Shown here piece after piece: positions 3,145-40,824 of a DNA stretch of 41,551 nt. Made by a program: the position numbers and the translations under genes. The notes under the pieces are model-generated. The model worked only from the letters and a program-made list of their open reading frames with translations. It ran no database searches and was not told where the DNA came from. This DNA is from an uncultured bacterium (GTDB lineage Bacteria > Actinomycetota > Actinomycetes > S36-B12 > CAIYMF01), in assembly GCA_903826575.1 (NCBI GenBank), contig CAIKEU010000087.1, positions 1-41,551 on the forward strand, given 5' to 3'. Position 1 is the stretch's first letter. Each line of letters starts with the position of its first letter.

Positions 3145-3863
3145 CACAGTCCTCTGTTCGTGGCAGAAGGGGCGCCACCATCAGCAGCAAGGGTCGTCAG
3201 GTACGGATTCGATAGTCGCTCCCGGCCGATCGTCGTAGTACCCCCATGACCTGGTAGCACAACAGTTGTGTCAGCGAGCGGCAAAACCTTGGTTCGTAGG
3301 CTATTCAACATCTGGCTGTGATCTCCACCGGGTAAATCCGTACGGCCGATCGAGCCCTCAAACAACACATCACCAGACAGCAATACGGTGGGGTCTTCGG
3401 TGGTTTCGGCTCGACGGAACATCACTGAGCCACCGGTGTGACCGGGGGCGTGCTCAACAATGAAGTCTAGGCCGGCCACGCTGATCGTCAGTGCATCTTC
3501 CAACAACCGGATGTCGTCAGGTTCACCCATAGCCAGCCGACCCTCAGTCATCGAAGCGAGCATGTCGACGCTTTGAGGACTCATCGCGGACAGCGGATCA
3601 GACAACATCGCCCGGTCGTTCGGATGGATGAACGCTGGGATTCCTCGTGTACCGCACACAGGAACAACACTCCACACATGATCGATATGACCGTGCGTTA
3701 ACAGCACAGCCACCGGCTTGAGACCGTGTTCGGAAACGAGTTCCTCGATGCCACCGGCGGAATCCTTCCCCGGATCAACGATGACGCATTCTGCGCCCGG
3801 CTCGGTGGCGATCACGTAACAGTTAGTACCCCATGGCCCCGCAGGGAATCCGCCTACCAGCAC
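3144..3863 (-). CDS. MBL-fold metallo-hydrolase (glyoxalase II-like)
   Basis: Metallo-beta-lactamase fold hydrolase of 239 residues. The metal-binding THGHIDH motif is present, followed by the downstream His in PGHTGGS, the Asp in SGDVLFEGSIGRTD, and a terminal PGHG. These are hallmarks of the hydroxyacylglutathione hydrolase-like branch. Actinobacteria usually lack glutathione, so the true thioester substrate is unknown. The start is GTG with GAGG 5 bases upstream. It leads the hisS-aspS unit and diverges from the cyclophilin gene across about 160 bases. A protein of this type sits next to hisS in Mycobacterium. Confidence 0.9.
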   Translation of the reverse strand: MLVGGFPAGPWGTNCYVIATEPGAECVIVDPGKDSAGGIEELVSEHGLKPVAVLLTHGHIDHVWSVVPVCGTRGIPAFIHPNDRAMLSDPLSAMSPQSVDMLASMTEGRLAMGEPDDIRLLEDALTISVAGLDFIVEHAPGHTGGSVMFRRAETTEDPTVLLSGDVLFEGSIGRTDLPGGDHSQMLNSLRTKVLPLADTTVVLPGHGGTTTIGRERLSNPYLTTLAADGGAPSATNRGL

Positions 3864-4021
3864 GTAATCCTCGCAATTCGTCCGAAGTCGGTCACACTCT
3901 TGAACATAGCGTCACCCATAAGGCTGAGCCTACCGGCGCCCCACTCTGCATTCACCTCCCACTCCTCCCTACACTCGGTTACGGAGCGTATGCAGCCACC
4001 AGGGACAGGGAGCAACACAGC

Positions 4022-4861
4022 GTGTCAAGCAGCAATAAGCGTGAACGCGAGATCGCGCGCGAGAAGTATGAACGTCAGCAGGCCCGCCGCCTCGAACAAG
4101 AGCAGGCGCGTCGTCGACGCAATCAAATCATCGCAGCAATCGCTGGCTTAGCCGTCGTCGGCGGCACTGTGGCAGCACTCCTGATCAACCACAATGCAAA
4201 CCAGCCGGCGACACCCGTGGCAACGGCATCGCCTTCAGCGTCGGCCTCCCCGTCGGCCTCCCCGTCCTCATCCGCGTCAGCAAGCCCTGCGACATTGGTG
4301 TGTCCGAAGGGACCCACACCAACGCAGAAGACCGAGCACTGGCCATCAGCACCAAGCGGCACCCTCGATCCAGCCAAGACCTACACGCTTAACTTCACCA
4401 CCAACTGCGGCGACGTGAAGATTCAGTTACTTCAGAACGCAGCGCCCAAGACCGCAGAGTCAGAAGCGTTCCTTACTGACAAGGGCTACTACAACCTTTC
4501 AGACTGTTTCCGCTTGACGACGCAAGGAATCTACGTCGTGCAATGCGGTAGCCCGACGAACAATGCGCAGAACGGCCCTGGCTACACAGTTCCAGACGAG
4601 AACTTGCCTGCCTCCGGCACCAATAACTACCCCGCCGGTACCGTGGCCATGGCCAACTCGGGTGCTGGCACGTCGGGTAGCCAGTTCTTCATTGTCTACA
4701 AAGACACCACCCTGCCACCGAGTTACACAATTTGGGGCAAGGTTGTTTCCGGTCTCGATGTCGTCACCAAGGTGGCCGGGGTCGGCGTCAAGGGCGGCGG
4801 TGCTGACGGAGTACCAGCACAGCCGTTTGTCATCACGAAAGCCACGACCCAGTCGGGCTGA
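4022..4861 (+). CDS. Membrane-anchored cyclophilin-type peptidyl-prolyl isomerase
   Basis: About 279 residues. It catalyses cis-trans isomerisation of prolyl bonds, probably on the outer face of the membrane. A basic, coiled N-terminus rich in Arg, Glu and Gln is followed by one membrane segment (QIIAAIAGLAVVGGTVAALLI), a Ser/Ala/Pro-rich linker, and a cyclophilin domain. The domain keeps the Arg of the F-x-R motif (CFRLTT), the Gln of VVQCG, and the signature MANSGAGTSGSQFFI. The usual GGD after that Gln is CGS here. I choose the GTG start because AGGGAG lies 9 bases before it; the longer open frame upstream has no such site. The DUF349 gene follows 12 bases after the stop. Confidence 0.93.
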   Translation: MSSSNKREREIAREKYERQQARRLEQEQARRRRNQIIAAIAGLAVVGGTVAALLINHNANQPATPVATASPSASASPSASPSSSASASPATLVCPKGPTPTQKTEHWPSAPSGTLDPAKTYTLNFTTNCGDVKIQLLQNAAPKTAESEAFLTDKGYYNLSDCFRLTTQGIYVVQCGSPTNNAQNGPGYTVPDENLPASGTNNYPAGTVAMANSGAGTSGSQFFIVYKDTTLPPSYTIWGKVVSGLDVVTKVAGVGVKGGGADGVPAQPFVITKATTQSG

Positions 4862-4873
4862 GGAGTGAATTAA

Positions 4874-6805
4874 ATGAGTACAGAAGATATGGAACACAAC
4901 GCAGTCGAATCTGTAACTGAGGTTGTAGAAACTGAGACTGCAGACACCACGATTATCGAATCCGGAGACGGCTCTATCGAGGTGATAGAAACGCAGATCG
5001 TTGAAACCGAGAGCAGCCAGACAACAGTCATCGAGACCGAGTCGGGCGCAATCGACGTCATTGAGACGGACATGTCGAGCACTGAGATCTTCCAGTCAGA
5101 TGTCCTCGAATCAGAATCCGGTGTCGTCGAGATTGTTGAGACCGAAATCTACGATTCGACGACGGTTGAAACTGACATCGTGGCCACCGAAGCTGGCATA
5201 GTCGAGGTAGTTCATACGACCGTTCTGGAGACTGAAACGGTTGAAACGAGCATCACCGAAACCGAGTCCGGGACAGTCGAGATCATCGAAACGGAAATCG
5301 TTGAGACCGAGATAGTCGAGAGCGACTCCGGAGTTACAGAGGTCTTCCAGACCACGATCCTTGAGACCGAGACCATCGAGACGGACATCGTCGAAACAGA
5401 GTCTGGTGCCCTTGAAATCATCGAGACCACGACGGTAGACACCGAAATCGTCGAATCGGACGCGGTCATTGTCGAAGATATCGAAACGACGTCCTCGCGG
5501 CCTACCCCGGCAATGATGGCCGCCTCAGTTCGACCCAGCGCACCCGTCGCAAGCGCACCTGTCGTCGAGGCGGTGTCCGACTCGGTCCGCTTCGGCAGAA
5601 TCGGTGATGACGGCTCTGTCTATCTCATTAACTCTGACGCCAGCGAGACCGTTGTAGGTCAATGGGCTGCGGGAACTCCAGAGGAAGGTCTGGCCTTCTT
5701 CGCGCGCAAGTACGACGACCTCGCTGCGGAATTGGACCTGGCAATCCAGCGCCTAACTGAGGGCAAGGCGTCTCCAGAGTCGCCGGCCTCGTCGATCACC
5801 CGTGTCGAGGAAGCCCTCGCAGCGCCGGCTATGGTCGGCGATCTCGATGCACTGCGCGCCAAACTCGTCAGCCTCAACGAACTCATTGAGGAGCGACGTA
5901 AGGTCATCGCACAGGAACGTGCCGCCGCCCGCGCCGCTGCCCTTGCAGCCCGTGAGGCAATCGTCAACGAGTCCGAATCCTTGGCCGACTCAACTCAGTG
6001 GAAGTCAACTGGTGACCGCTTCAAGGCGCTGCTCGAAGACTGGAAGGTGGCACCTCGTGCAGACCGTGCCAGTGAACAGGCGCTGTGGAAGCGATTTAGC
6101 CATGCGCGCTCTCAATTCGACAAGGCCCGTCGTCAACACTTCGCGAAGTTGGATGCCGAGCGTGACCAAGCCAAGAGCGTGAAGAACGACCTTGTCGCTC
6201 AGGCGCAAGAACTCGCAAGCTCAACGGACTGGGGTCCAACAGCAGGTGTGTACCGATCGCTGATGGATCAGTGGAAGGCGGCCCCACGAGCAAGCAAGTC
6301 CGAAGAGGACGCCCTGTGGTCTGCATTCAAGGGTGCCCAGGACCAGTTCTTCGCAGCTCGAAGTGAGGCTCTGAACCAGCGTGATGCGGGTTTGAACGAG
6401 AACCTGGTCGCAAAGCAGGCTCTGTTGGCCGAGGCCGAGGCAATCGACCCGTCTGATCTGAAGGTCGCGAAGAAGGCTCTGCGTGGAATTCAAGAACGCT
6501 GGGAAAAGATAGGTCACGTCCCGAGAAACGATAAGGACAAGATCGAAGGCCGCCTTCGCAAGGTTGAAGAATCACTGCGTCAAGGTGAGCAGGAGCAGTG
6601 GCGCAAGAGTAATCCCGAAGCTCGCGCACGTGCCGAGGCAACTGTCGCCCAGTTCCAGTCGTCACTCGACAAGCTAGAGAAGGACCTCGCAAAGGCACAA
6701 ACGGCTGGGGATGCTCGCAAGGTCGCCGAGTGCGAGCAGCGCATCGTCACGACCAAAGCGCTGCTCGACGCAGCACAGCGTGCTGCAACCGAATTCTCGG
6801 GTTAG
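4874..6805 (+). CDS. DUF349 protein with a long acidic Thr/Glu pentad-repeat N-terminus
   Basis: 643-residue protein with no signal peptide or membrane segment. Residues 16-205 form an unbroken run of five-residue units with the pattern x-[hydrophobic]-[hydrophobic]-E-T. There is no Lys or Arg before residue 208. A Pro/Ala linker (about 206-236) leads to a conserved segment beginning SVRFGRIGDDGSVY. Predicted helical DUF349 repeats follow, with marker tryptophans at 376 and 453 and a third unit around 500-570, and the C-terminus is coiled. DUF349 proteins commonly lie between ppi and rel in actinobacteria; their function is not established to my knowledge. The usual protein begins near residue 237, so the first 205 residues look like a lineage-specific addition. 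An AGGAG site lies 8 bases before the ATG. Confidence 0.9.
   Translation: MSTEDMEHNAVESVTEVVETETADTTIIESGDGSIEVIETQIVETESSQTTVIETESGAIDVIETDMSSTEIFQSDVLESESGVVEIVETEIYDSTTVETDIVATEAGIVEVVHTTVLETETVETSITETESGTVEIIETEIVETEIVESDSGVTEVFQTTILETETIETDIVETESGALEIIETTTVDTEIVESDAVIVEDIETTSSRPTPAMMAASVRPSAPVASAPVVEAVSDSVRFGRIGDDGSVYLINSDASETVVGQWAAGTPEEGLAFFARKYDDLAAELDLAIQRLTEGKASPESPASSITRVEEALAAPAMVGDLDALRAKLVSLNELIEERRKVIAQERAAARAAALAAREAIVNESESLADSTQWKSTGDRFKALLEDWKVAPRADRASEQALWKRFSHARSQFDKARRQHFAKLDAERDQAKSVKNDLVAQAQELASSTDWGPTAGVYRSLMDQWKAAPRASKSEEDALWSAFKGAQDQFFAARSEALNQRDAGLNENLVAKQALLAEAEAIDPSDLKVAKKALRGIQERWEKIGHVPRNDKDKIEGRLRKVEESLRQGEQEQWRKSNPEARARAEATVAQFQSSLDKLEKDLAKAQTAGDARKVAECEQRIVTTKALLDAAQRAATEFSG
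4919..5488 (+). repeat. In-frame 75/60-base repeat coding 38 acidic pentapeptides
   Basis: The stretch encodes residues 16-205 of the DUF349 protein. Pentads containing Ser-Gly or a variant (GDGSI, ESGAI, ESGVV, EAGIV, ESGTV, DSGVT, ESGAL, DAVIV) begin at residues 31, 56, 81, 106, 131, 151, 176 and 196. They therefore recur every 25 residues, with two 20-residue steps. By hand count 55 of the 190 residues are Asp or Glu, with at least one in every pentad. The DNA copies differ freely at synonymous positions (GAA/GAG, ACC/ACG/ACT), so this is a protein-level repeat and not a fresh DNA tandem array. Confidence 0.9.
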
Positions 6806-6813
6806 AACAGCAG

Positions 6814-6856
6814 TTATCGTGTGTGATCCGTCCCCCGTGCGGATCACACACGATAA
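6814..6856. terminator. 17-bp perfect inverted repeat between convergent DUF349 and rsh genes
   Basis: Arms 6814-6830 and 6840-6856 are perfectly complementary (TTATCGTGTGTGATCCG and its complement) around a 9-base loop. The right arm contains the last codons and the TGA stop of rsh. No T-tract follows on either strand. It probably acts as a bidirectional terminator or 3'-end stabiliser for both convergent transcripts. Confidence 0.75.
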
Positions 6857-9156
6857 ACGTCGTAGACGCCTTCGACTGATCGAACACTTCTGAGCACCTG
6901 CTCAAGGTGCGTTGCGTCAGCCATCTCAAATGTGAAGCGCGACAAGGCAATTCGGTCACGAGTGGTACTGACCGCAGCTGAAAGAATGTTCACATGCTGA
7001 TCGGACAAGGTGCGCGTTACGTCCGACAGCAGCCGCGACCGGTCCAGTGCTTCCACTTGGATGTTCACCAGGAACACGCTGCTTGAGGTTGGCGCCCAGG
7101 TCACTGGAACGATCCGATCCGGCTCCGTTTGTAGCTGGGCACTATTTATGCAATCAACGCGGTGGACTGATACGCCACTGCCGCGCGTCACATATCCAAT
7201 GACGTTGTCGCCAGGCACAGGGGTACAGCATCTGGCTAATTTGACCCAAACGTCGTTATCGCCGTCTACCACGATGCCCGGATCACCCTGAGGTCGAACC
7301 CTCGCCGTCGATGACTGATGCGGTGTGAATGCTTCGGCGATGTCCTCGGTAGCGCCGTCAGCTCCTCCGTGCGCCACAAGCAGTTTCTGAACCACACTTG
7401 CCGCCGACACGCGGCCCTCCCCGACCGCGGCGAAAAGTGCACTCGCATCTGTCATGTGGAGATCAGCAAGCAAAACCTGCATGGTTGCCGGCGACATCAA
7501 CCTGTTCATGGGCAGGCTCGCTTTACGCATGGCCTTCGTGAGCGAATCCTTGCCCGCTTCGATTGCTTCCTCACGCCGTTCTTTCGAGAACCAGGCTTTG
7601 ATCTTCGAACGTGCACGTGGGCTTTGTGCGAACTGCAACCAATCTCGAGACGGTCCAGCATTTTCGGACTTTGATGTGAACGCTTCAACGACATCGCCGG
7701 AGGACAAGGCAGACTCAAGGGGTACAAGCTTGCCGTTGACTCTGGCACCTACGCAGCGGTGACCCACTTCGGTGTGAACCGCATAGGCAAAGTCGATCGA
7801 CGTTGCACCCTCGGGGAGAGCAACCACATCTCCCTTGGGAGTGAATACGAAGACTTCGTTCGATCCCAAGTCATACCGCAACGCGTCAAGGAAGTCGTCT
7901 GGATCTTCCGTTTCACGCTGCCATTCAAGAAGTTGCCGCAACCAGCCCATATCGTCAGGGCCAGACTTACCACCGACTGATCCCTGCTTGTAGCGCCAGT
8001 GAGCTGCCACGCCGTACTCAGCTGCGCGATGCATCTCCGTGGTACGAATCTGAAGCTCGACCGGCTTGCCGCCTGGACCAATAACAGTCGTGTGAAGTGA
8101 CTGGTACATATTGAATTTCGGCATAGCGATAAAGTCTTTAAACCGGCCGGGCACCGGATTCCAATGCGAGTGGATCACACCGAGAACTGCGTAGCAGTCC
8201 CGAACACTCTCAACCAAAATACGGATACCGACGAGGTCATAGATGTCGGCGAAATCACGACCTCGTACGATCATTTTTTGGTAGACCGAGTAGTAGTGCT
8301 TTGGTCGACCAGTCACAGTCGCTTTCACCTTGGCGTTCGCTAGATCTAGTTCAACGGCGGCCAAGATCTGATCCAAAAACAGATCGCGCTCTGGAGCGCG
8401 CGAGCCCACTAATTGAACGATCTCGTCGTACATCTTCGGGTAAAGCGCTGCAAATGAAAGGTCTTCTAACTCCCACTTCAAGGTGTTCATACCTAGACGA
8501 TGGGCAAGTGGTGCGTAGATTTCGAGAGTCTCCCGCGCCTTCTTCTCCTGCTTTTCGGCCGGCATCCAGTGCAGGGTGCGCATGTTGTGGAGTCGGTCGG
8601 CGAGCTTGATCACCAGAACTCGGATATCTCGTGCCATGGCGATGACCATCTTGCGGACCGTTTCAGCCGCGGTTGCTTCGCCGTACTTAACTTTGTCTAG
8701 TTTGGTCACACCGTCAACAAGTGCGGCTACCTCGTCACCAAAGTCTTCACGCAATGCGTCGAGTGAATACTCGGTGTCCTCGACAGTGTCATGCAATAGC
8801 GCCGCAATCAAAGTCGGGGGCGTCATCCCTAACTCGGCCAAGATCGTGGCAACGGCAAGTGGGTGGGTGATGTAGGGCTCACCCGAGCGCCGCTTTTGAT
8901 CGCGGTGTAGATACCTCGCTCGGTCGTAGGCCCGCTCAAGCAATTTCAAATCCGCTTTGGGGTGATACTGCTTCACCAACTTGAAGAGCGGTTCCAACTC
9001 TGGATAGACAGACGACTTGCTGGCACCACGACGCGGTGAGATCCGGGGTAACAACGACCGTCTGCTAGTTGCTTCGACGGCAGGAGAGTATGCGCTCAAA
9101 ACACTGTTCGGCACGGGCACGGAGATACCCGGCGCAGCAACAATGTCTTCGGCCAC
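6844..9156 (-). CDS. relA: Bifunctional (p)ppGpp synthetase/hydrolase (RSH family)
   Basis: Makes and degrades the stringent-response alarmone. In order: an HD hydrolase domain ([19 protein letters not shown]), a synthetase domain ([38 protein letters not shown]), a TGS domain ([14 protein letters not shown]), and a C-terminal ACT domain. The RFKD motif is the RxKD form of bifunctional enzymes, not the ExDD form of synthesis-only RelA. The frame can open at a TTG at 9213, but no ribosome site precedes it. I prefer GTG at 9156, about 770 residues, which has GGGAG just upstream with a short 4-base gap. The stop lies inside the shared terminator stem. It is last in the yajC-secD-secF-apt-rsh run. 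Confidence 0.96.
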
Positions 9157-9236
9157 GATGCTCCCTGTTGGTTGAGACCCGTTATCTGAGTCTACGTCGT
9201 CGCGCAGCAACAAGAGACACTGACCGACCCGTCACT

Positions 9237-9775: not shown

Positions 9776-10912
9776 CTACTTCTTCTTACGCTGGCTACGG
9801 GTCGTGTTCTTCTTCGGCTGCTGGCGTGGCCCAGTTGATTCCGGCGACTGACCAGCCATTGCGGCAACCGCAGCCTGTGCGCCAACCGTTGTTAGATCGT
9901 CTGCAGAAGTACCGTCAACCGCCGTTTTAGTTGCAGCCTTTGCCTTCTCACCAGCATTGCGGCGAGCTTCGACCCGAGCAGCAAGAGCCTTCATCTCGGG
10001 ACGCTGCTCCTGCAGCTGACAGGCAACTGGTGTGGCAATGAAGATCGATGAGTACGTACCGGCCGCGGTACCTACGAACAGCGCAAGAGCCAGATCCTTC
10101 AGCGTGCCGGCGCCAAGCAGTCCAACACCGATGATGAGGATGGCTGCCACTGGAAGCAACGCCACTACTGAGGTGTTGATTGAGCGAACCAACGTCTGAT
10201 TCAAGGCCAGGTTCGCCGCGTCGCTATACGTCATGCGGTTACCAGAGGTGATCCCCTTGGTGTTTTCGCGCACCTTGTCGAATACGACCACGGTGTCATA
10301 GAGCGAGAAGCCCAGAATAGTCAGAATACCGATGACGGTCGCTGGCGTGACCTCAAATCCCGTCAGGGCATAGATACCAACGGTAATCAGAAGGTCGTGT
10401 ACCAAGGCGACGAGAGCCGCCACAGCTAATCGCCATTCGAAGTACAAAGACAAGAACAGGACCACCAGCACAAGGAAGACCGCCAGGCCTTGGAGTGCAT
10501 GTTTGGTGATCTCAGCTCCCCAGGTCGGCCCGATCAACGTCACACCGATATCGCCCTGTTTAACCCCAAGATCCTTTGACAACTGGGCGGTGACCTTCGC
10601 CGACTCAGCTGGAGTTAGCGCTGGCGACTGGATCCGGATCTTGTTCTGGCCGACTTCGGTGACAATTGGGTCTGCGATACCCGCCGCTTTTGCAGAGTCA
10701 CGAGCTTGCTGGACGGTTGCGGTACTCGACGGGATCGTAAACTCAGATCCACCCTTGAATTCGATACCGAGATTCAATCCACGGCCAAACAAGCCTACGA
10801 GAGCCAGAACGAGGAACACCCCAGAGATCGCATACCAACGTCGACGCTTGCCTACAAAATCGTAGGACACCTCGCCACTGTAGAGGCGGTGCGCAAGACT
10901 TCCGAGTGACAT
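9776..10912 (-). CDS. secF: Protein translocase subunit SecF
   Basis: Membrane partner of SecD that uses the proton-motive force to help release proteins exported through SecYEG. The 378 residues include the N-terminal YDFVGKRRRWYAIS segment, an external domain after the first membrane helix, and the conserved VVVFDKVREN loop near residue 210. The tail is long and rich in Ala and Lys, ending in a basic stretch. The start ATG shares one base with the secD stop (TGATG), so translation is coupled. Confidence 0.96.
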   Translation of the reverse strand: MSLGSLAHRLYSGEVSYDFVGKRRRWYAISGVFLVLALVGLFGRGLNLGIEFKGGSEFTIPSSTATVQQARDSAKAAGIADPIVTEVGQNKIRIQSPALTPAESAKVTAQLSKDLGVKQGDIGVTLIGPTWGAEITKHALQGLAVFLVLVVLFLSLYFEWRLAVAALVALVHDLLITVGIYALTGFEVTPATVIGILTILGFSLYDTVVVFDKVRENTKGITSGNRMTYSDAANLALNQTLVRSINTSVVALLPVAAILIIGVGLLGAGTLKDLALALFVGTAAGTYSSIFIATPVACQLQEQRPEMKALAARVEARRNAGEKAKAATKTAVDGTSADDLTTVGAQAAVAAMAGQSPESTGPRQQPKKNTTRSQRKKK

Positions 10913-12720
10913 CAGGACTCCTTCGCGGCACTTGCCGCAGCAACGGACTGACGTCCGACAGGGACAACTTCAGTTTTGACCCCCAGGCGATCTGGAGACA
11001 AGCCCGTCCATGGCTTACCCGAGGTAAACCAATCAGTTCGCATGAGTAGCGAAACCAACGGACGGGTGAACAGGAAAGCCACAAAAATATCGACGAGAGT
11101 CGTCAGGCCCAAAGTGAAGGCGAATCCTCGAACCGATCCAACGGACATGAAGTAGAGAACAACCGCAGCGAGCAGTGACACGAAGTCAGCAGCCAGAATC
11201 GTCTTGCGCGCGCGAATCCAGCCTGCGTCACCGGCTGCACGCAAGCTACGGCCTTCTCGAATCTCATCTCGGATACGTTCGAAGTACACAATGAACGAGT
11301 CAGCAGTAATACCGATTGCAACAATGGCACCCGCGACGCCAGCCAGCGAAAGCGTGAAGCCAAGCTGGCGCCCCAAGATAACGAACAGCGCATAGGTGAT
11401 CGCTGCCGCCACAAGTAGCGAAGCGACGGCGACAAGTCCTAGGGCTCGGTAATAGATGACGAGGTAGATGACCACGAGCAGCAGGCCGAGAAGTCCAGCA
11501 AGGATGCCGGCCCTCAACTGATCGTCACCAAGCGTTGGAGAAATCTGCTCAACTGACGATGGCACCAAGGTCACCGGCAACGATCCGTACTTGAGTACAT
11601 TCGCGAGCGCCTTGGCTTGATCCGGCGTAAAGCTACCGGTGATCTGGGCACTACCGCCGAGGATTGGCTCGTTAACGCGCGGTGCGGACTGGACCAATCC
11701 ATCGAGGGTGATTGCGAATTGGTTCTGCGGCGGCTGCTGCTTTGACAACTTGGTCGTCGTGTCAGCGAACTGCTGGGCGCCAGCGGAGGTGAAACCGAGG
11801 TTCACCTGCCAGCCTGCGCCGCCCTGTGCGATGCCGGCCTGCGCACTTGAGATCTCCGTACCTTGAACCGCCGCAGGCTCCAAGAGATACTTAAGCGCAC
11901 CGTCCGTCGAACACGTGACGAGGTACTTGGTCGGGTCTGCCGCACCACCCTTCGTCGCGCCTGTCTTGGAACAATCCAAACCTGTAAAGGCCGCCTGCAG
12001 TGCGGCATCATTCTTAGCCGACTGAATCGGCGGAAGTCCGTTATTCGACGTGATCCCCGCCGATGTGGCAACGGATGTCGTCACCGGAGACGTGCTCGGA
12101 GACGGAGTAGCAGATGGAGTTGGTGATGCTGAATCGGCCGCTGGGCGTAGACCGCCGGTAACCGCCGCGCCATTACTTGATGCCTTCGGCGAGGCGTTGG
12201 CCGTCACCGTCGCACTAGGGGCAATTGACACCGTCGAACTGGCAACGGGAGCCGGCTTCGTCGACGGGGACGCCGATCCTGACGGTGACACAGATGGCGA
12301 GACCGTCGGCCTAACTTGCGGGCTGCCGTAGTCTTCGTTGATGACCGGACGGAAGTCCAACTTCGCGGTAGTCGACAACGAATCCAAGATGGCCTGGTTC
12401 GTCGTACCCGGGATCGAGACGATGATCGTGGCGTTGTCACCACTGCCCTGTGTCGTCACCTCAGACTCAGCGACGCCGAAACCATCTACACGCTGGCGGA
12501 TAATTTCGACCGACTGCTTGAGTTGATCATCGGTGATCGGCACCCCGTTGGTTGAAACAGGCGACAAGATCACCTGCGTTCCGCCGCGTAGGTCAAGCCC
12601 GAGTCGCGGCGAATGCGATAGCCCGGGCCAGAACGCCCAAGCAAGCAAGCTCGCCAGAATGAGGCCAAGAATGGTCAGGGTGCGACCTGGCTTAAATGCG
12701 GTCTTCGTCGGTGCTGCCAC
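10912..12720 (-). CDS. secD: Protein translocase subunit SecD with a long Ser/Pro/Thr linker
   Basis: 602-residue SecD. The LGLDLRGGTQV motif follows the first membrane helix. The family signature appears as AITGSFTPDQAKALANVLKYGSLP-like sequence, written here as AQITGSF and ANVLKYGSLPV, and the last third holds the remaining membrane helices. Residues about 132-225 are a low-complexity Ser/Pro/Thr/Ala stretch inside the first external domain, before TGLDCSKTG. Actinobacterial SecD proteins often carry an insertion here, but this one is long. The start is GTG with GGGAG 8 bases upstream. SecD and SecF overlap by one base. Confidence 0.95.
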   Translation of the reverse strand: MAAPTKTAFKPGRTLTILGLILASLLAWAFWPGLSHSPRLGLDLRGGTQVILSPVSTNGVPITDDQLKQSVEIIRQRVDGFGVAESEVTTQGSGDNATIIVSIPGTTNQAILDSLSTTAKLDFRPVINEDYGSPQVRPTVSPSVSPSGSASPSTKPAPVASSTVSIAPSATVTANASPKASSNGAAVTGGLRPAADSASPTPSATPSPSTSPVTTSVATSAGITSNNGLPPIQSAKNDAALQAAFTGLDCSKTGATKGGAADPTKYLVTCSTDGALKYLLEPAAVQGTEISSAQAGIAQGGAGWQVNLGFTSAGAQQFADTTTKLSKQQPPQNQFAITLDGLVQSAPRVNEPILGGSAQITGSFTPDQAKALANVLKYGSLPVTLVPSSVEQISPTLGDDQLRAGILAGLLGLLLVVIYLVIYYRALGLVAVASLLVAAAITYALFVILGRQLGFTLSLAGVAGAIVAIGITADSFIVYFERIRDEIREGRSLRAAGDAGWIRARKTILAADFVSLLAAVVLYFMSVGSVRGFAFTLGLTTLVDIFVAFLFTRPLVSLLMRTDWFTSGKPWTGLSPDRLGVKTEVVPVGRQSVAAASAAKES

Positions 12721-36853: not shown

Positions 36854-37642
36854 ATGCAGCAACTGCTACCTGAGGCCAAACCAGACCTCTCGAATGCCGA
36901 CCTCGACGCTCTCTACGGTTGGCCCAATTGGCCGTCTCCGCAGCCTTGGGTGCGCGCAAACATGGTCTCCACAATCGACGGAGCCGCAGCCTCGCCAGAC
37001 GGACTCAGCGAGGGCATCTCTTCGCCTGCCGATCGTCGAGTCTTTGGTCGACTCCGGGGCTTAGCTGACGCGGTGCTGGTGGGCGCTGGAACAGTGCGGA
37101 GCGAGGGGTATCGTCCGGCCCGTATAAAACCAGACTTCGCAGATCGACGTGCAGCGGCCGGACAGGGCATTGTTCCTGCGATCGCCGTCGTAAGCCGCAG
37201 CCTGGACCTAGATCTATCACTCCCCCTTTACACCGAGCCCGCTGTCCGCACGATCGTGGTTACCTGCGCCGCTGCCGATCCAACACTGATCGACGCTGCA
37301 CGAGAGATATGCGACGTCGAAGTTTGTGGTGACGAGTCTGTGGACCTCAGCGTGGCGGTAGCTGCGTTGCACCATCGGGGCCTGAGCCGTATCCACAGTG
37401 AAGGTGGCCCACGGCTCTTGGCGGACCTGGTTGCCGCTGAAGTGCTCGACGAGTTACTGCTGACGTTTTCTCCAACCGTCGCAGGCGGCTCGTTCCCGAA
37501 TGGGGCTGATGTCCCGCGGATTCTTGCGGGCATCAGCAATCCCTCGGGCCTGCGAGCCGTAAGACTGCATCATCTGCTTGAAGAGGATTCGATACTCTTC
37601 GCAAGTTACCGATTCAGGCCACTCCCCGAGCAAAACCTGTGA
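36854..37642 (+). CDS. RibD C-terminal/dihydrofolate reductase-like NADPH reductase
   Basis: 263 residues with the DHFR-like fold of RibD-C proteins: ANMVSTIDGAAA near the N-terminus, LADAVLVGAGTVRSEGYRPA, and IHSEGGPRLLADLV in the C-terminal half. The deaminase half of RibD is absent. Proteins of this kind are often called pyrimidine reductases; the substrate is unproven. I choose the ATG preceded by AGGG, not the long upstream frame, which is Arg/Ser-rich read-through of the previous gene. The stop overlaps the ligase start (GTGA). Confidence 0.83.
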   Translation: MQQLLPEAKPDLSNADLDALYGWPNWPSPQPWVRANMVSTIDGAAASPDGLSEGISSPADRRVFGRLRGLADAVLVGAGTVRSEGYRPARIKPDFADRRAAAGQGIVPAIAVVSRSLDLDLSLPLYTEPAVRTIVVTCAAADPTLIDAAREICDVEVCGDESVDLSVAVAALHHRGLSRIHSEGGPRLLADLVAAEVLDELLLTFSPTVAGGSFPNGADVPRILAGISNPSGLRAVRLHHLLEEDSILFASYRFRPLPEQNL

Positions 37643-38745
37643 CGAATATGCCTAACTTTCCCCTGGCTCCGCCGATCAAGCCCATGCTCGCCAAGCCGGT
37701 ATCTGGGGTGCCGGCCAACGATTCAATAGCCGGCGGCTTGGTATACGAGCCAAAGTGGGACGGCTTTCGCTGTATCGTTTTCCGCGACGGTGATCACGTC
37801 GAACTTGGTAGTCGCAACGAAAAACCGCTGACCCGGTACTTTCCTGAACTTGTTGCACCACTGCGCGCGAATCTTCCGGACCGATGCGTCGTGGACGGCG
37901 AAATCATCATCGTTCGCGACCAGCGACTAGATTTCGAGGCTCTTCAAAATCGCATCCATCCAGCCACATCTCGGGTTAATCTGCTCGCTGAGCAGACCCC
38001 TGCATCATTTGTGGCCTTCGACCTGCTCGCCCTTGAAGACGACCTCACCGGTGAGCCTTTTCGTCATCGTCGAGTTGCTTTGGAGCAGGCACTTATCGCT
38101 GCGCAGCCTCCCATCTACCTGACGAGGGTGAGCCACCAGCAGGTGGAAGGCCAGAGGTGGTTTGACCAGTTCGAGGGCGCGGGGCTTGACGGAATCATCT
38201 GTAAGCCACTGAATCTTCCCTACCAGCCAGACAAACGCACCATGCTTAAAGTGAAACATTCACGGACCGCAGACTGTGTGGTTGCAGGCTGGCGACCGCA
38301 CAAGCAGTCCGGTCCCCAAGGTCAGATGATGCTTGGCTCGCTCATGCTCGGACTATTCAACGATGCGGGAGTTCTACAGTCCGTTGGCGTTGCGGCAGCC
38401 TTCACCCAACAGCGACGTTGTGAACTTGTCAACGAGTTGAGCGGCTACGCGCTTGCAGATGGTGACTCGCATCCATGGCAAGAGTGGCGGGATCCCTCGG
38501 CACATGAGGCGAATCGGTTGCCCGGAGGCGTAAGTCGTTGGAGCGCAGGCAAAAACCTAGATTGGTTCCCTCTGCGCCCCGAGCTCGTCGTAGAAGTTGG
38601 CTACGACGCAATGGAAGGAAATCGCTTTCGACACACGGCACAGTTCAAGCGATGGAGATCCGACCGTTTACCCGAATCGTGCACATACGAACAGTTGGAG
38701 CGCCCAACTACGTACTCGCTCGCGGATGTCCTCGTCTCTGGCTGA
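37639..38745 (+). CDS. ligC: ATP-dependent DNA ligase, LigC type
   Basis: 368 residues, the size of mycobacterial LigC. The adenylation Lys lies in motif I (YEPKWDGFR), then SRNEKPLTRYF, VVDGEI, FVAFDLLA, motif IV LDGIICKPL and motif V MLKVKHSRTADCVV; an OB-fold follows. It seals nicks using ATP. In mycobacteria LigC works with Prim-PolC in base excision repair, and a matching polymerase gene lies 850 bases away on the other strand. The GTG start overlaps the preceding gene; ATG at 37648 is an alternative. Confidence 0.92.
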   Translation: MTNMPNFPLAPPIKPMLAKPVSGVPANDSIAGGLVYEPKWDGFRCIVFRDGDHVELGSRNEKPLTRYFPELVAPLRANLPDRCVVDGEIIIVRDQRLDFEALQNRIHPATSRVNLLAEQTPASFVAFDLLALEDDLTGEPFRHRRVALEQALIAAQPPIYLTRVSHQQVEGQRWFDQFEGAGLDGIICKPLNLPYQPDKRTMLKVKHSRTADCVVAGWRPHKQSGPQGQMMLGSLMLGLFNDAGVLQSVGVAAAFTQQRRCELVNELSGYALADGDSHPWQEWRDPSAHEANRLPGGVSRWSAGKNLDWFPLRPELVVEVGYDAMEGNRFRHTAQFKRWRSDRLPESCTYEQLERPTTYSLADVLVSG

Positions 38746-39590: not shown

Positions 39591-40649
39591 TCAAATTTCA
39601 GAGCGAGCGCGGCTTGGTTGCACTCGCTTGGGCTCGCCGGCCATCTTGGGGTAGTCGGGTGGATAGGGCATCTCCCCTAATCCGTAGTCGCGTTCATCCC
39701 GCTCGTACCACTCCAGCAGCGGAGCCAGATCGTAATGAGCTGAATCGATCGACTCATGCAGATCCCCCACCTGAGCAAATCGCGCACCCGCATTGAGAAC
39801 TGTGAAGTCCACAGGCTCGACATCATCGATTTCGTCCCAAGTAACCGGCATGGAGACAGGAGCATGTGCCGTGGCACGGATTGAGTAGGCAGAGGCAATA
39901 GTTCGGTCGCGGGCGTTCTGATTAAAGTCCACGAAAATCGCAGTGCCACGATCTTCCTTCCACCACTGCGTTGTGACCCGGCCCGGCATGCGCCGTTCCA
40001 ACTCTCGTCCGACGGCAATAGCTGCATGACGAACATCGATGAACGTGAAGGCAGGTGCGATGCGCACGTAGATGTGCAGGCCACGACCACCCGAGGTTTT
40101 GACGTATCCCTGCATACCCACCTCGGCTAGCAGAGTCCGCAACTCGTGGGCCACAACGACAGCATCGCGAAAGTCTGTGCCCGGCTGCGGATCCAAGTCC
40201 AACCGAAGCTCGTCGGGATGATCAACGTTGAGCTTTCTCACCGGCCACGGATGAAAGGTGATGGTGCCCAGTTGAGCTGCCCACGCCACGACGGCCAGCG
40301 AGGATGGCGCGACCTCGTCAGCGGTTCTGCCAGACGGGAACGTGATGTGGGCCGTCTCGACGAAATCCGGAGCACCGGTAGGTACCCGTTTTTGATAGAA
40401 GGCATCCCCGCGGCTATCACTGCGAGTACTTAGGACGGCCCCGTCAACAACCCCGTTTGGCCATCGCTCCAGAGTGGTTGGACGATCGCGCAGAGCCCGC
40501 AGAATTCCTGGCCCACAGGACAGGTAATGCTGAACTACGTGCCGTTTGGTGATGCCCACGGCGGGAAAATACGGCTTTTCAGGATTTGTCACCCGGACGA
40601 TGTGACCATCAACGTCCAGTTCAATCGGTTCACCGAAACTCTTTGCCAT
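39591..40649 (-). CDS. Stand-alone archaeo-eukaryotic primase-polymerase (Prim-PolC/LigD polymerase domain)
   Basis: 352 residues matching the polymerase domain of LigD. The N-terminus has VTNPEKPYFPAVGITKRHVV, the metal-binding pair lies in LRLDLDPQPG, and the nucleotide-binding SGGRGLHIYV and the later VFVDFNQNARDRT-type motif (IFVDFNQNARDRT) are intact. No ligase or nuclease domain is attached. With the LigC gene close by it most resembles the mycobacterial Prim-PolC, which does short gap filling. No Ku gene is in the window. I choose the ATG at 40649 with GAGG 3 bases before it; GTG at 40658 is possible. Confidence 0.9.
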   Translation of the reverse strand: MAKSFGEPIELDVDGHIVRVTNPEKPYFPAVGITKRHVVQHYLSCGPGILRALRDRPTTLERWPNGVVDGAVLSTRSDSRGDAFYQKRVPTGAPDFVETAHITFPSGRTADEVAPSSLAVVAWAAQLGTITFHPWPVRKLNVDHPDELRLDLDPQPGTDFRDAVVVAHELRTLLAEVGMQGYVKTSGGRGLHIYVRIAPAFTFIDVRHAAIAVGRELERRMPGRVTTQWWKEDRGTAIFVDFNQNARDRTIASAYSIRATAHAPVSMPVTWDEIDDVEPVDFTVLNAGARFAQVGDLHESIDSAHYDLAPLLEWYERDERDYGLGEMPYPPDYPKMAGEPKRVQPSRARSEI

Positions 40650-40824
40650 GGACCTCACGTTAGGGCTTAGCGCGGTATGAATGCGGATTATCCGCGGGCT
40701 GAAAATCCGGTTTAGGCCGGAATACTCGTCGCGGTTCGATGGTTATGTAGACGTGAACTCCCCCCTTCACTGGTCGCGCACCTGGTTGTCGCGACAATTT
40801 CAACGCACCTTCGGAGGTATGCAC

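Follow-up and report, generated by a model that had tools for sequence, protein, structure and literature searches.

An acidic, hypervariable N-terminal tail on an actinobacterial three-DUF349 protein, with a repeat unit that differs between sister species

The DUF349 protein and its acidic array

The stretch of DNA analysed here, referred to as the window, comprises the 41,551 nucleotides of contig CAIKEU010000087.1 (assembly GCA_903826575.1) from an uncultured bacterium of the Actinomycetes. Our subject is an open reading frame (ORF) of 643 aa (4874..6805, + strand) in which an acidic N-terminal tail precedes a core with three tandem DUF349 domains. The core (residues 237-643; 5582..6802, +) was delimited by alignment and is mostly helical, AlphaFold2 (AF2) returning a confident helical model with a predicted local distance difference test (pLDDT) score mostly above 90. 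Three matches to PF03993 exceeded the cut-off, at 5852..6067 (E = 1.8e-13), 6080..6298 (E = 6.2e-21) and 6311..6529 (E = 2.4e-22), all on the + strand. Searches and alignment revealed core orthologues in many Actinobacteria, and when 296 genomes of the phylum were searched with PF03993, 26 of them matched, namely our own and 25 others from its class, and in every one the domain matches numbered exactly 3 and lay together. There is thus one three-DUF349 gene per matching genome, which makes orthology likely. Judged by domain architecture, the protein is of the MSMEG_2731/Rv2731 type, the three-DUF349 protein of Actinobacteria. According to the available portion of the publication on MSMEG_2731 from M. 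smegmatis, that protein has three DUF349 domains, binds RNA, single-stranded DNA and double-stranded DNA with micromolar affinity and ribosomal protein S1 (RPS1) at a 1:1 ratio, and carries 68 N-terminal aa which are predicted to be disordered, are proteolysed and lost on storage, and were reported, as data not shown, to be unnecessary for binding (PMC3348880). An earlier note made from the window alone had described an array fused to an RNA- or ribosome-linked DUF349 protein; the three PF03993 matches bear this out, the link itself being drawn from the M. smegmatis counterpart.

The array spans residues 16-205 (4919..5488, +) and consists of 38 pentads that keep one frame with no insertion or deletion, just as the earlier note had stated, and these group into superunits of 25 (in places 20) residues, each beginning with a Ser/Ala-Gly turn. 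The pattern proposed for the pentads, x-hydrophobic-hydrophobic-E-T, reflects a real periodic frame but is looser than claimed. Even in the relaxed form x-h-h-[EDQH]-[TS] it fits 20/38 pentads, against 17/38 for x-h-h-[ED]-[TS] and 10/38 for the exact x-[VI]-[VI]-E-T, and the longest strict run of adjacent-hydrophobic pentads is 3; among composition shuffles (n = 5000), the best frame reached at most 4 pentad fits. The strongest period of the array was 25 residues, with an identity of 0.42 at lag 25 (shuffle mean 0.14, maximum 0.24). Glycines mark this period at residues 58, 83, 108, 133, 153 and 178 (steps of 25, 25, 25, 20 and 25), with two more at 31 and 33. A Ser-Gly unit recurring every 25 residues with two 20-residue steps had been proposed; the 25-residue steps and one 20-residue step were found, and the second would need a degenerate unit without Gly around residue 198.

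The absence of Lys and Arg from the first 207 residues was also confirmed, the first basic residue being R209. At the Lys+Arg frequency of the core (15.7%), a run of 208 residues free of both has a probability of 3.5e-16. The residues before 209 include 59 acidic and 0 basic ones, the net charge is -58 over 209 residues, and the longest acidic run is 2. Directly C-terminal of the tail lies a PxPxMMxxSVRP motif (PTPAMMAASVRP, residues 210-221; 5501..5536, +).

The start of the ORF is sound. In the sequence, a Shine-Dalgarno AGGAG (4861..4865, +) stands 8 nt ahead of the start and shares bases with the stop codon of the tandem upstream neighbour (3833..4861, +, start approximate), a cyclophilin-type peptidyl-prolyl isomerase gene which, from its sequence, we take to be ppiB. 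AGGAG precedes the tail start in 7 other genomes of the same genus, the GAGGAGTGA context at the start is identical in the relatives G004, G001 and G007 (genomes are given here by our own handles), and ppiB immediately precedes the tail in 3/3 sister genomes checked. A wrongly assigned start was ruled out, because AGGAG and the start occupy the same position after ppiB across the genus, and this also disposes of the alternative, raised in the earlier note, that translation begins near residue 237. The convergent neighbour downstream (6844..9213, - strand) is presumably rsh/relA.

Further along the window, nearly uncharged Ser/Pro/Ala low-complexity stretches, unlike the charged DUF349 tail, were seen in a presumed SecD-like ORF (10912-12720, -) and in the presumed ppiB-like ORF (3833-4861, +). 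We also noted what we take to be an ATP-dependent DNA ligase-like ORF (37639-38745, +) near a presumably LigD-polymerase-like ORF (39591-40658, -), which may both belong, as separate parts, to one end-joining system.

To place the tail among known families, residues 1-209 were searched against Pfam, with no family at E <= 1, and the tail had no NCBIfam match and no PDB sequence match. These results agree with the earlier statements that the array does not belong to the A(D/N)Lxx pentapeptide family, from which it also departs by its hydrophobics at two adjacent positions, and that it fits no described family. Our own genome held no further copy of the array, the sole other match having an E of 0.128, and a phage search with the array gave no match (best PHROG E = 0.26). 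In 119 relatives, one other match at E <= 0.001 appeared (G007), and the sister G004 was not matched; the G007 match is a coiled-coil-like Ala-Glu-Arg/Leu repeat that we judged unrelated. A search of 396 phylum genomes listed, besides our own, 3 weakly matching genomes at 4 places (L089-L092), each read only in its most V/I/T/E-rich frame, which is not necessarily the matched one. In that frame L090-L092 bore no resemblance to the window array. L089 (G173) showed an unrelated actinobacterial protein whose lengthy coiled-coil-like region is followed, at the end, by an acidic array of VEAEP pentads.

The helical core gave no closer lead to a fold. Foldseek with the core model returned nothing at E <= 0.001, and the best hit of a PDB profile search was centromere protein K, at E = 0.0087. 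VIA-align reached a best Z of 9.9, on a long helical hairpin (64 residues), and a Z of about 8.5 with spectrin-type repeats (root-mean-square deviation 8.5-11.6), matches of a kind that is uninformative for helical bundles. Among the open-access papers listed for DUF349, Rv2731 and acidic repeats or tails, no title or opening of an abstract dealt with this tail. The accessible part of one article names DUF349 among syntenic Streptomyces clusters and no more (PMC13118837), and another candidate source was discarded, its accessible text concerning DUF3499, which is irrelevant to this protein (PMC7775120).

Constant charge and changing repeat units in relatives

All 11 genomes sampled from the genus possess the core, and 9 of them provided complete tails; those of G001 and G007 are split by contig ends, and their start halves read as acidic too. 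The complete tails were acidic in 9/9 cases, with net charges from -9 to -69 and just 1-4 Lys+Arg in the whole tail before a PxPxx[LM] form of the motif (present in 9/9), compared with 15.6-17.2% Lys+Arg in the cores. Other than in the window and its sister G004, the tails of the genus measured 107-316 residues and were mostly Ala/Pro/Glu-rich, that of G006 looking Leu/Ala/Glu-rich. Period 5 was significant (2000 shuffles) in 5/9 tails (G000, G006, G002, G003 and G008), period 9 was found in G010, and G009 and G005 showed a weak lag-10 signal at most. Pentads do occur in relatives, although they are made of other residues, mostly Ala/Pro. In-frame runs of adjacent-hydrophobic pentads reached 4 in G006/L006 (AVVAE LVLEE LVLEE LIVEE) and 6 in G002/L011 (PVVGE PVVAE PVVAE ...). 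Taken with period 5 in 5/9 tails, these runs make five-residue acidic units a recurring theme of the genus; such units may be older than the triads of G004 described below, and the G006 and G002 runs, which resemble the x-h-h-E-T units of the window, may be what is left of an ancestral unit common to these species.

The closest relative, G004, whose tail had to be joined across a 149-nt overlap of two contig ends, is identical to the window protein at 356/407 core residues. It retains the Shine-Dalgarno, the MSTE start and the motif, here PNPSMMASSVRP. The array itself is built differently: a 179-residue stretch follows a single three-residue frame of 59 triads, 31 of which are exact [VI][ED][TV] (shuffle maximum 10), with Val/Ile in first place in 46/59 and an acidic residue in the middle in 53/59. 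Identity within this tail was 0.30 at lag 3 and 0.44 at lag 24, and at lag 5 it was 0.05, below chance. The closest sister, with periods of 3 and 24, thus does not keep the pentad register, a point that the earlier note had proposed to check. A motif [ST][AG]D recurs in G004 at residues 52, 76, 100, 124, 148, 172 and 196, that is, seven times at an exact spacing of 24, and a profile of the window units placed on G004 singled out one phase that overlaps with the motif, its mean score of -2.25 standing above those of 500 triad shuffles (<= -3.35). Unlike this phase test, local alignment of the two arrays gave nothing significant: its score of 182 lay inside the range of triad-shuffled sequences (mean 168.6, sd 10.4), which reached a maximum of 201, and the arrays are not alignable beyond low complexity. 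The window species and G004 also have the lowest locus G+C of the genus (57.5 and 58.4%, the others 62-75%), and Val/Ile/Thr in place of Ala/Pro goes with this lower G+C.

At the nucleotide level, the copies within the window array are, as proposed, close to scrambled at synonymous sites: at lag 25 the same codon was used at 32/69 identical residues (p = 0.15; permutation mean 27.6). The figure for lag 20 was 28/55 (p = 0.056; mean 22.1), and the copies may thus still bear a slight mark of common descent. G004 gave 50/87 at lag 24 (mean 42.9, p = 0.05), and G003, with 44/65 at lag 10 (mean 25.4), displayed clear synonymous traces of recent duplication. Between copies, the synonymous (dS) and nonsynonymous (dN) divergences were 2.59 and 0.50 in the window (lag 25) and 1.15 and 0.31 in G004 (lag 24). 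The 4-fold sites of window and G004 differed by 0.634, near the saturation expectation of 0.725.

Perfect repeats were then evolved in simulations to the synonymous divergence observed (60 runs). Under neutrality the window array acquired 15.2 Lys+Arg (minimum 5) and that of G004 10.2 (minimum 4), whereas the observed number is 0 in both. Neutral lag-25 identity fell to 0.16 (maximum 0.30), against the observed 0.42, and a ban on Lys/Arg alone also gave 0.16; a constraint on overall composition yielded 0.43 (maximum 0.59), matching the observation. These simulations indicate that the amino acids are constrained and basic residues excluded, while composition alone accounts for the lag-25 identity. 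The earlier argument that the protein pattern must be kept because the synonymous sites are scrambled therefore holds as to constraint at the amino acid level, but not as to the pattern, since a composition constraint reproduces the lag-25 identity.

Beyond the genus we read the loci of 79 of the 84 matched genomes (60 + 19 loci; G032, G050, G078, G081 and G086 were left out), with starts chosen by a simple Shine-Dalgarno rule that was plainly wrong in some cases, e.g. G013. Tails of net -7 or lower were found in 4/79 (G011, G018, G059 and G077). In family f7 the tails had <=17 aa in 24/26 genomes, and in f6 a TP[AST]-type motif, related to the one that follows the tail in the genus, was visible by eye in 29/29 rows, mostly without a long tail. 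A second sample, 25 other genomes of the same class with starts assigned in the same simple way, yielded long acidic tails in 2/25 (G257 and G126), and these contain Lys/Arg (15 and 6). Short or absent, basic and acidic tails across families identify the tail as a hypervariable module that the core does without. Two individual cases deserve mention. In f9, a large-genome family, 8/8 proteins (L154, L161, L162, L165-L168 and L173) start with VSSDP, a tail of 5 residues only. In Arthrobacter terrae (L059), a distant relative, an acidic Val-Glu-Thr-Pro-Ala-like pentad array (PAVETPAVETPAAEVPAVET...) is present at the corresponding position, ahead of a PSPAAFAARP motif.

Possible structure and role of the tail

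When residues 1-256 were modelled alone, AF2 drew strands at a mean pLDDT of 44.5, with 17 residues at 70-90. Given alignment A1, it placed strands at 85-104, 110-129, 134-151, 154-174 and 180-194, broken at the Ser/Ala-Gly sites (block pLDDT 36-65); residues 1-120 of the tail mostly scored under 50, and much of 121-190 reached 50-65. The beta-solenoid held by a conserved pentad register that the earlier note had envisaged was not recovered: AF2 drew no solenoid, just strands of low confidence, and the sister lacks period 5.

We lean, with somewhat better than even confidence, towards a hypervariable acidic N-terminal tail that turns over by in-frame repeats, is kept negative and probably modulates electrostatically the contacts of the protein with nucleic acids or S1. 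Such a tail, presumably expressed and disordered, would grow and be rewritten as short units are duplicated in frame, and the unit would for that reason differ among species (5/25 in the window, 3/24 in G004, other pentads, a 9-mer, or none clear). Selection would keep composition, above all a negative charge and a lack of basic residues, over any one register. The tethered acidic chain might then compete with RNA, DNA or acidic partners for basic sites on the DUF349 core or on S1, and, like the acidic tail of Hfq, could in this way keep nonspecific binding and aggregation down.

Several observations weigh against this reading. The core of the window protein has a net charge of -3 and an isoelectric point (pI) of 5.95, and so offers no obvious large counter-charge for autoinhibition. 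Large hydrophobics make up 31% of the window tail and 35% of the sister tail, a poor fit to a plain disordered acidic tail, and in charge-hydropathy terms both are borderline, the window tail on the disordered side and the sister tail on the folded side. The recurrence of five-residue units in 5/9 species suggests more than composition, and the 24/25-residue turn unit common to the window and G004 hints at the same. Nor is the sign of the charge family-wide, as follows from the Pro-rich tails of family f10 (net 0 to +3 in 7/8, the remaining one at -5 with a doubtful start) together with the pI of 11.7 of the MSMEG_2731 tail.

The chief rival, which we regard as unlikely although well worth considering, is a near-neutral low-complexity expansion, i.e., a functionless tail arisen by slippage and duplication in which selection purges only basic or very hydrophobic changes that cause misbinding. 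It would agree with the many genomes of other families in which the tail is missing or only about 5 aa long, with repeat units that differ among species, and with the reported dispensability for binding and proteolysis of the M. smegmatis tail. It is harder to reconcile with the exclusion of Lys/Arg far beyond neutral expectation and with acidity in 9/9 complete genus tails despite near-saturated synonymous sites, from which it follows that the acidic tail has outlived much mutation. Fold-based explanations begin from the turn motif instead. Seven times at exactly 24 residues in G004, at 25/20 in the window, and with one G004 phase singled out by the unit profile, this motif could mark a folded acidic antiparallel beta-meander in which each 24/25-residue unit is a long strand plus a Ser/Thr-Gly/Ala turn, forming an acidic sheet or rod one layer thick; whether the inner repeat is 3 or 5 would make no difference, since with any odd period the two faces carry the same residues. 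Val, Ile and Thr favour strands, and the AF2 strands break at the Ser/Ala-Gly sites and also appear in the isolated tail. Nevertheless, that model scores low, cross-strand repulsion would be severe with 59 acidic and no basic residues, the unit was not seen by eye in the Ala/Pro/Leu/Glu tails of other relatives, and the composition-only simulation equals the lag-25 retention. AF2 is moreover reported to be biased on perfect repeats, for which it over-predicts solenoids (PMC11795689). We consider the meander improbable. Slightly more doubtful still is its fuller version, a new acidic rod of 24/25-residue units whose turn and length are kept between sisters while the inner period switches between 3 and 5, maybe stabilised by cations, on an RNA/S1-linked DUF349 protein.

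The original proposal, in which the tail is a beta-solenoid or a rod of pentapeptide type that binds ions or mimics nucleic acid, can point to a five-residue frame unbroken across 190 residues and to the significant period 5 in 5/9 genus tails, which raises its odds slightly. However, the closest sister has no such period, the remaining tails with period 5 consist mostly of Ala/Pro/Glu, and the tail has no Pfam match and no solenoid in the AF2 models. In pentapeptide-repeat helices the inward residues lie at i / i-2, a pattern that the adjacent hydrophobics at positions 2 and 3 do not fit. We deem this proposal very improbable.

Comparison with known systems

The pentapeptide repeat family (A(D/N)LXX, presumably PF00805) is like the window array in its five-residue period only, the array having no Pfam match and hydrophobics at two adjacent positions. 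Nearer in kind are the Ala/Pro/Glu pentad tails of L008 and of L059 from Arthrobacter terrae, which also consist of five-residue acidic units ahead of a PxP motif; these tails are Ala/Pro-based and presumably disordered, whereas that of the window is Val/Ile/Thr-based. MSMEG_2731/Rv2731 shares the three tandem DUF349 domains, the helical core and a variable N-terminal tail outside it. Its tail has 68 aa and is Pro/Arg-rich and basic, while that of the window has about 208, is acidic and lacks Lys/Arg; the likeness drawn here is one of architecture. The accessible text on Hfq describes an acidic C-terminal domain that autoregulates RNA binding and is suggested to be a nucleic-acid mimic (PMC5606850). 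Hfq thus shares with the window protein an acidic tail tethered to an RNA-binding protein; in Hfq, the acidic tip binds basic residues of its own core, whereas the window tail is long, repetitive and N-terminal and sits on a core with a slight negative charge. Eukaryotic DNA/RNA-binding proteins carry D/E repeats which are reported to act in target search (PMC10250230). These also place a large negative charge beside a nucleic-acid-binding domain, but they are consecutive D/E runs, in contrast to the acidic runs of at most two residues in the window tail.

In all likelihood the array is an unusual representative of something already known: a hypervariable acidic tail, built of repeats, at the N-terminus of a conserved protein linked to RNA. 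The register change between sister species at constant charge is its interesting part, and a bacterial tail whose charge stays constant while its repeat unit differs between sisters provides natural variants for testing the roles of acidic tails. It also draws attention to an actinobacterial protein that has been little studied and whose tail, depending on the family, is near-absent, basic or, as in the window, strongly acidic.

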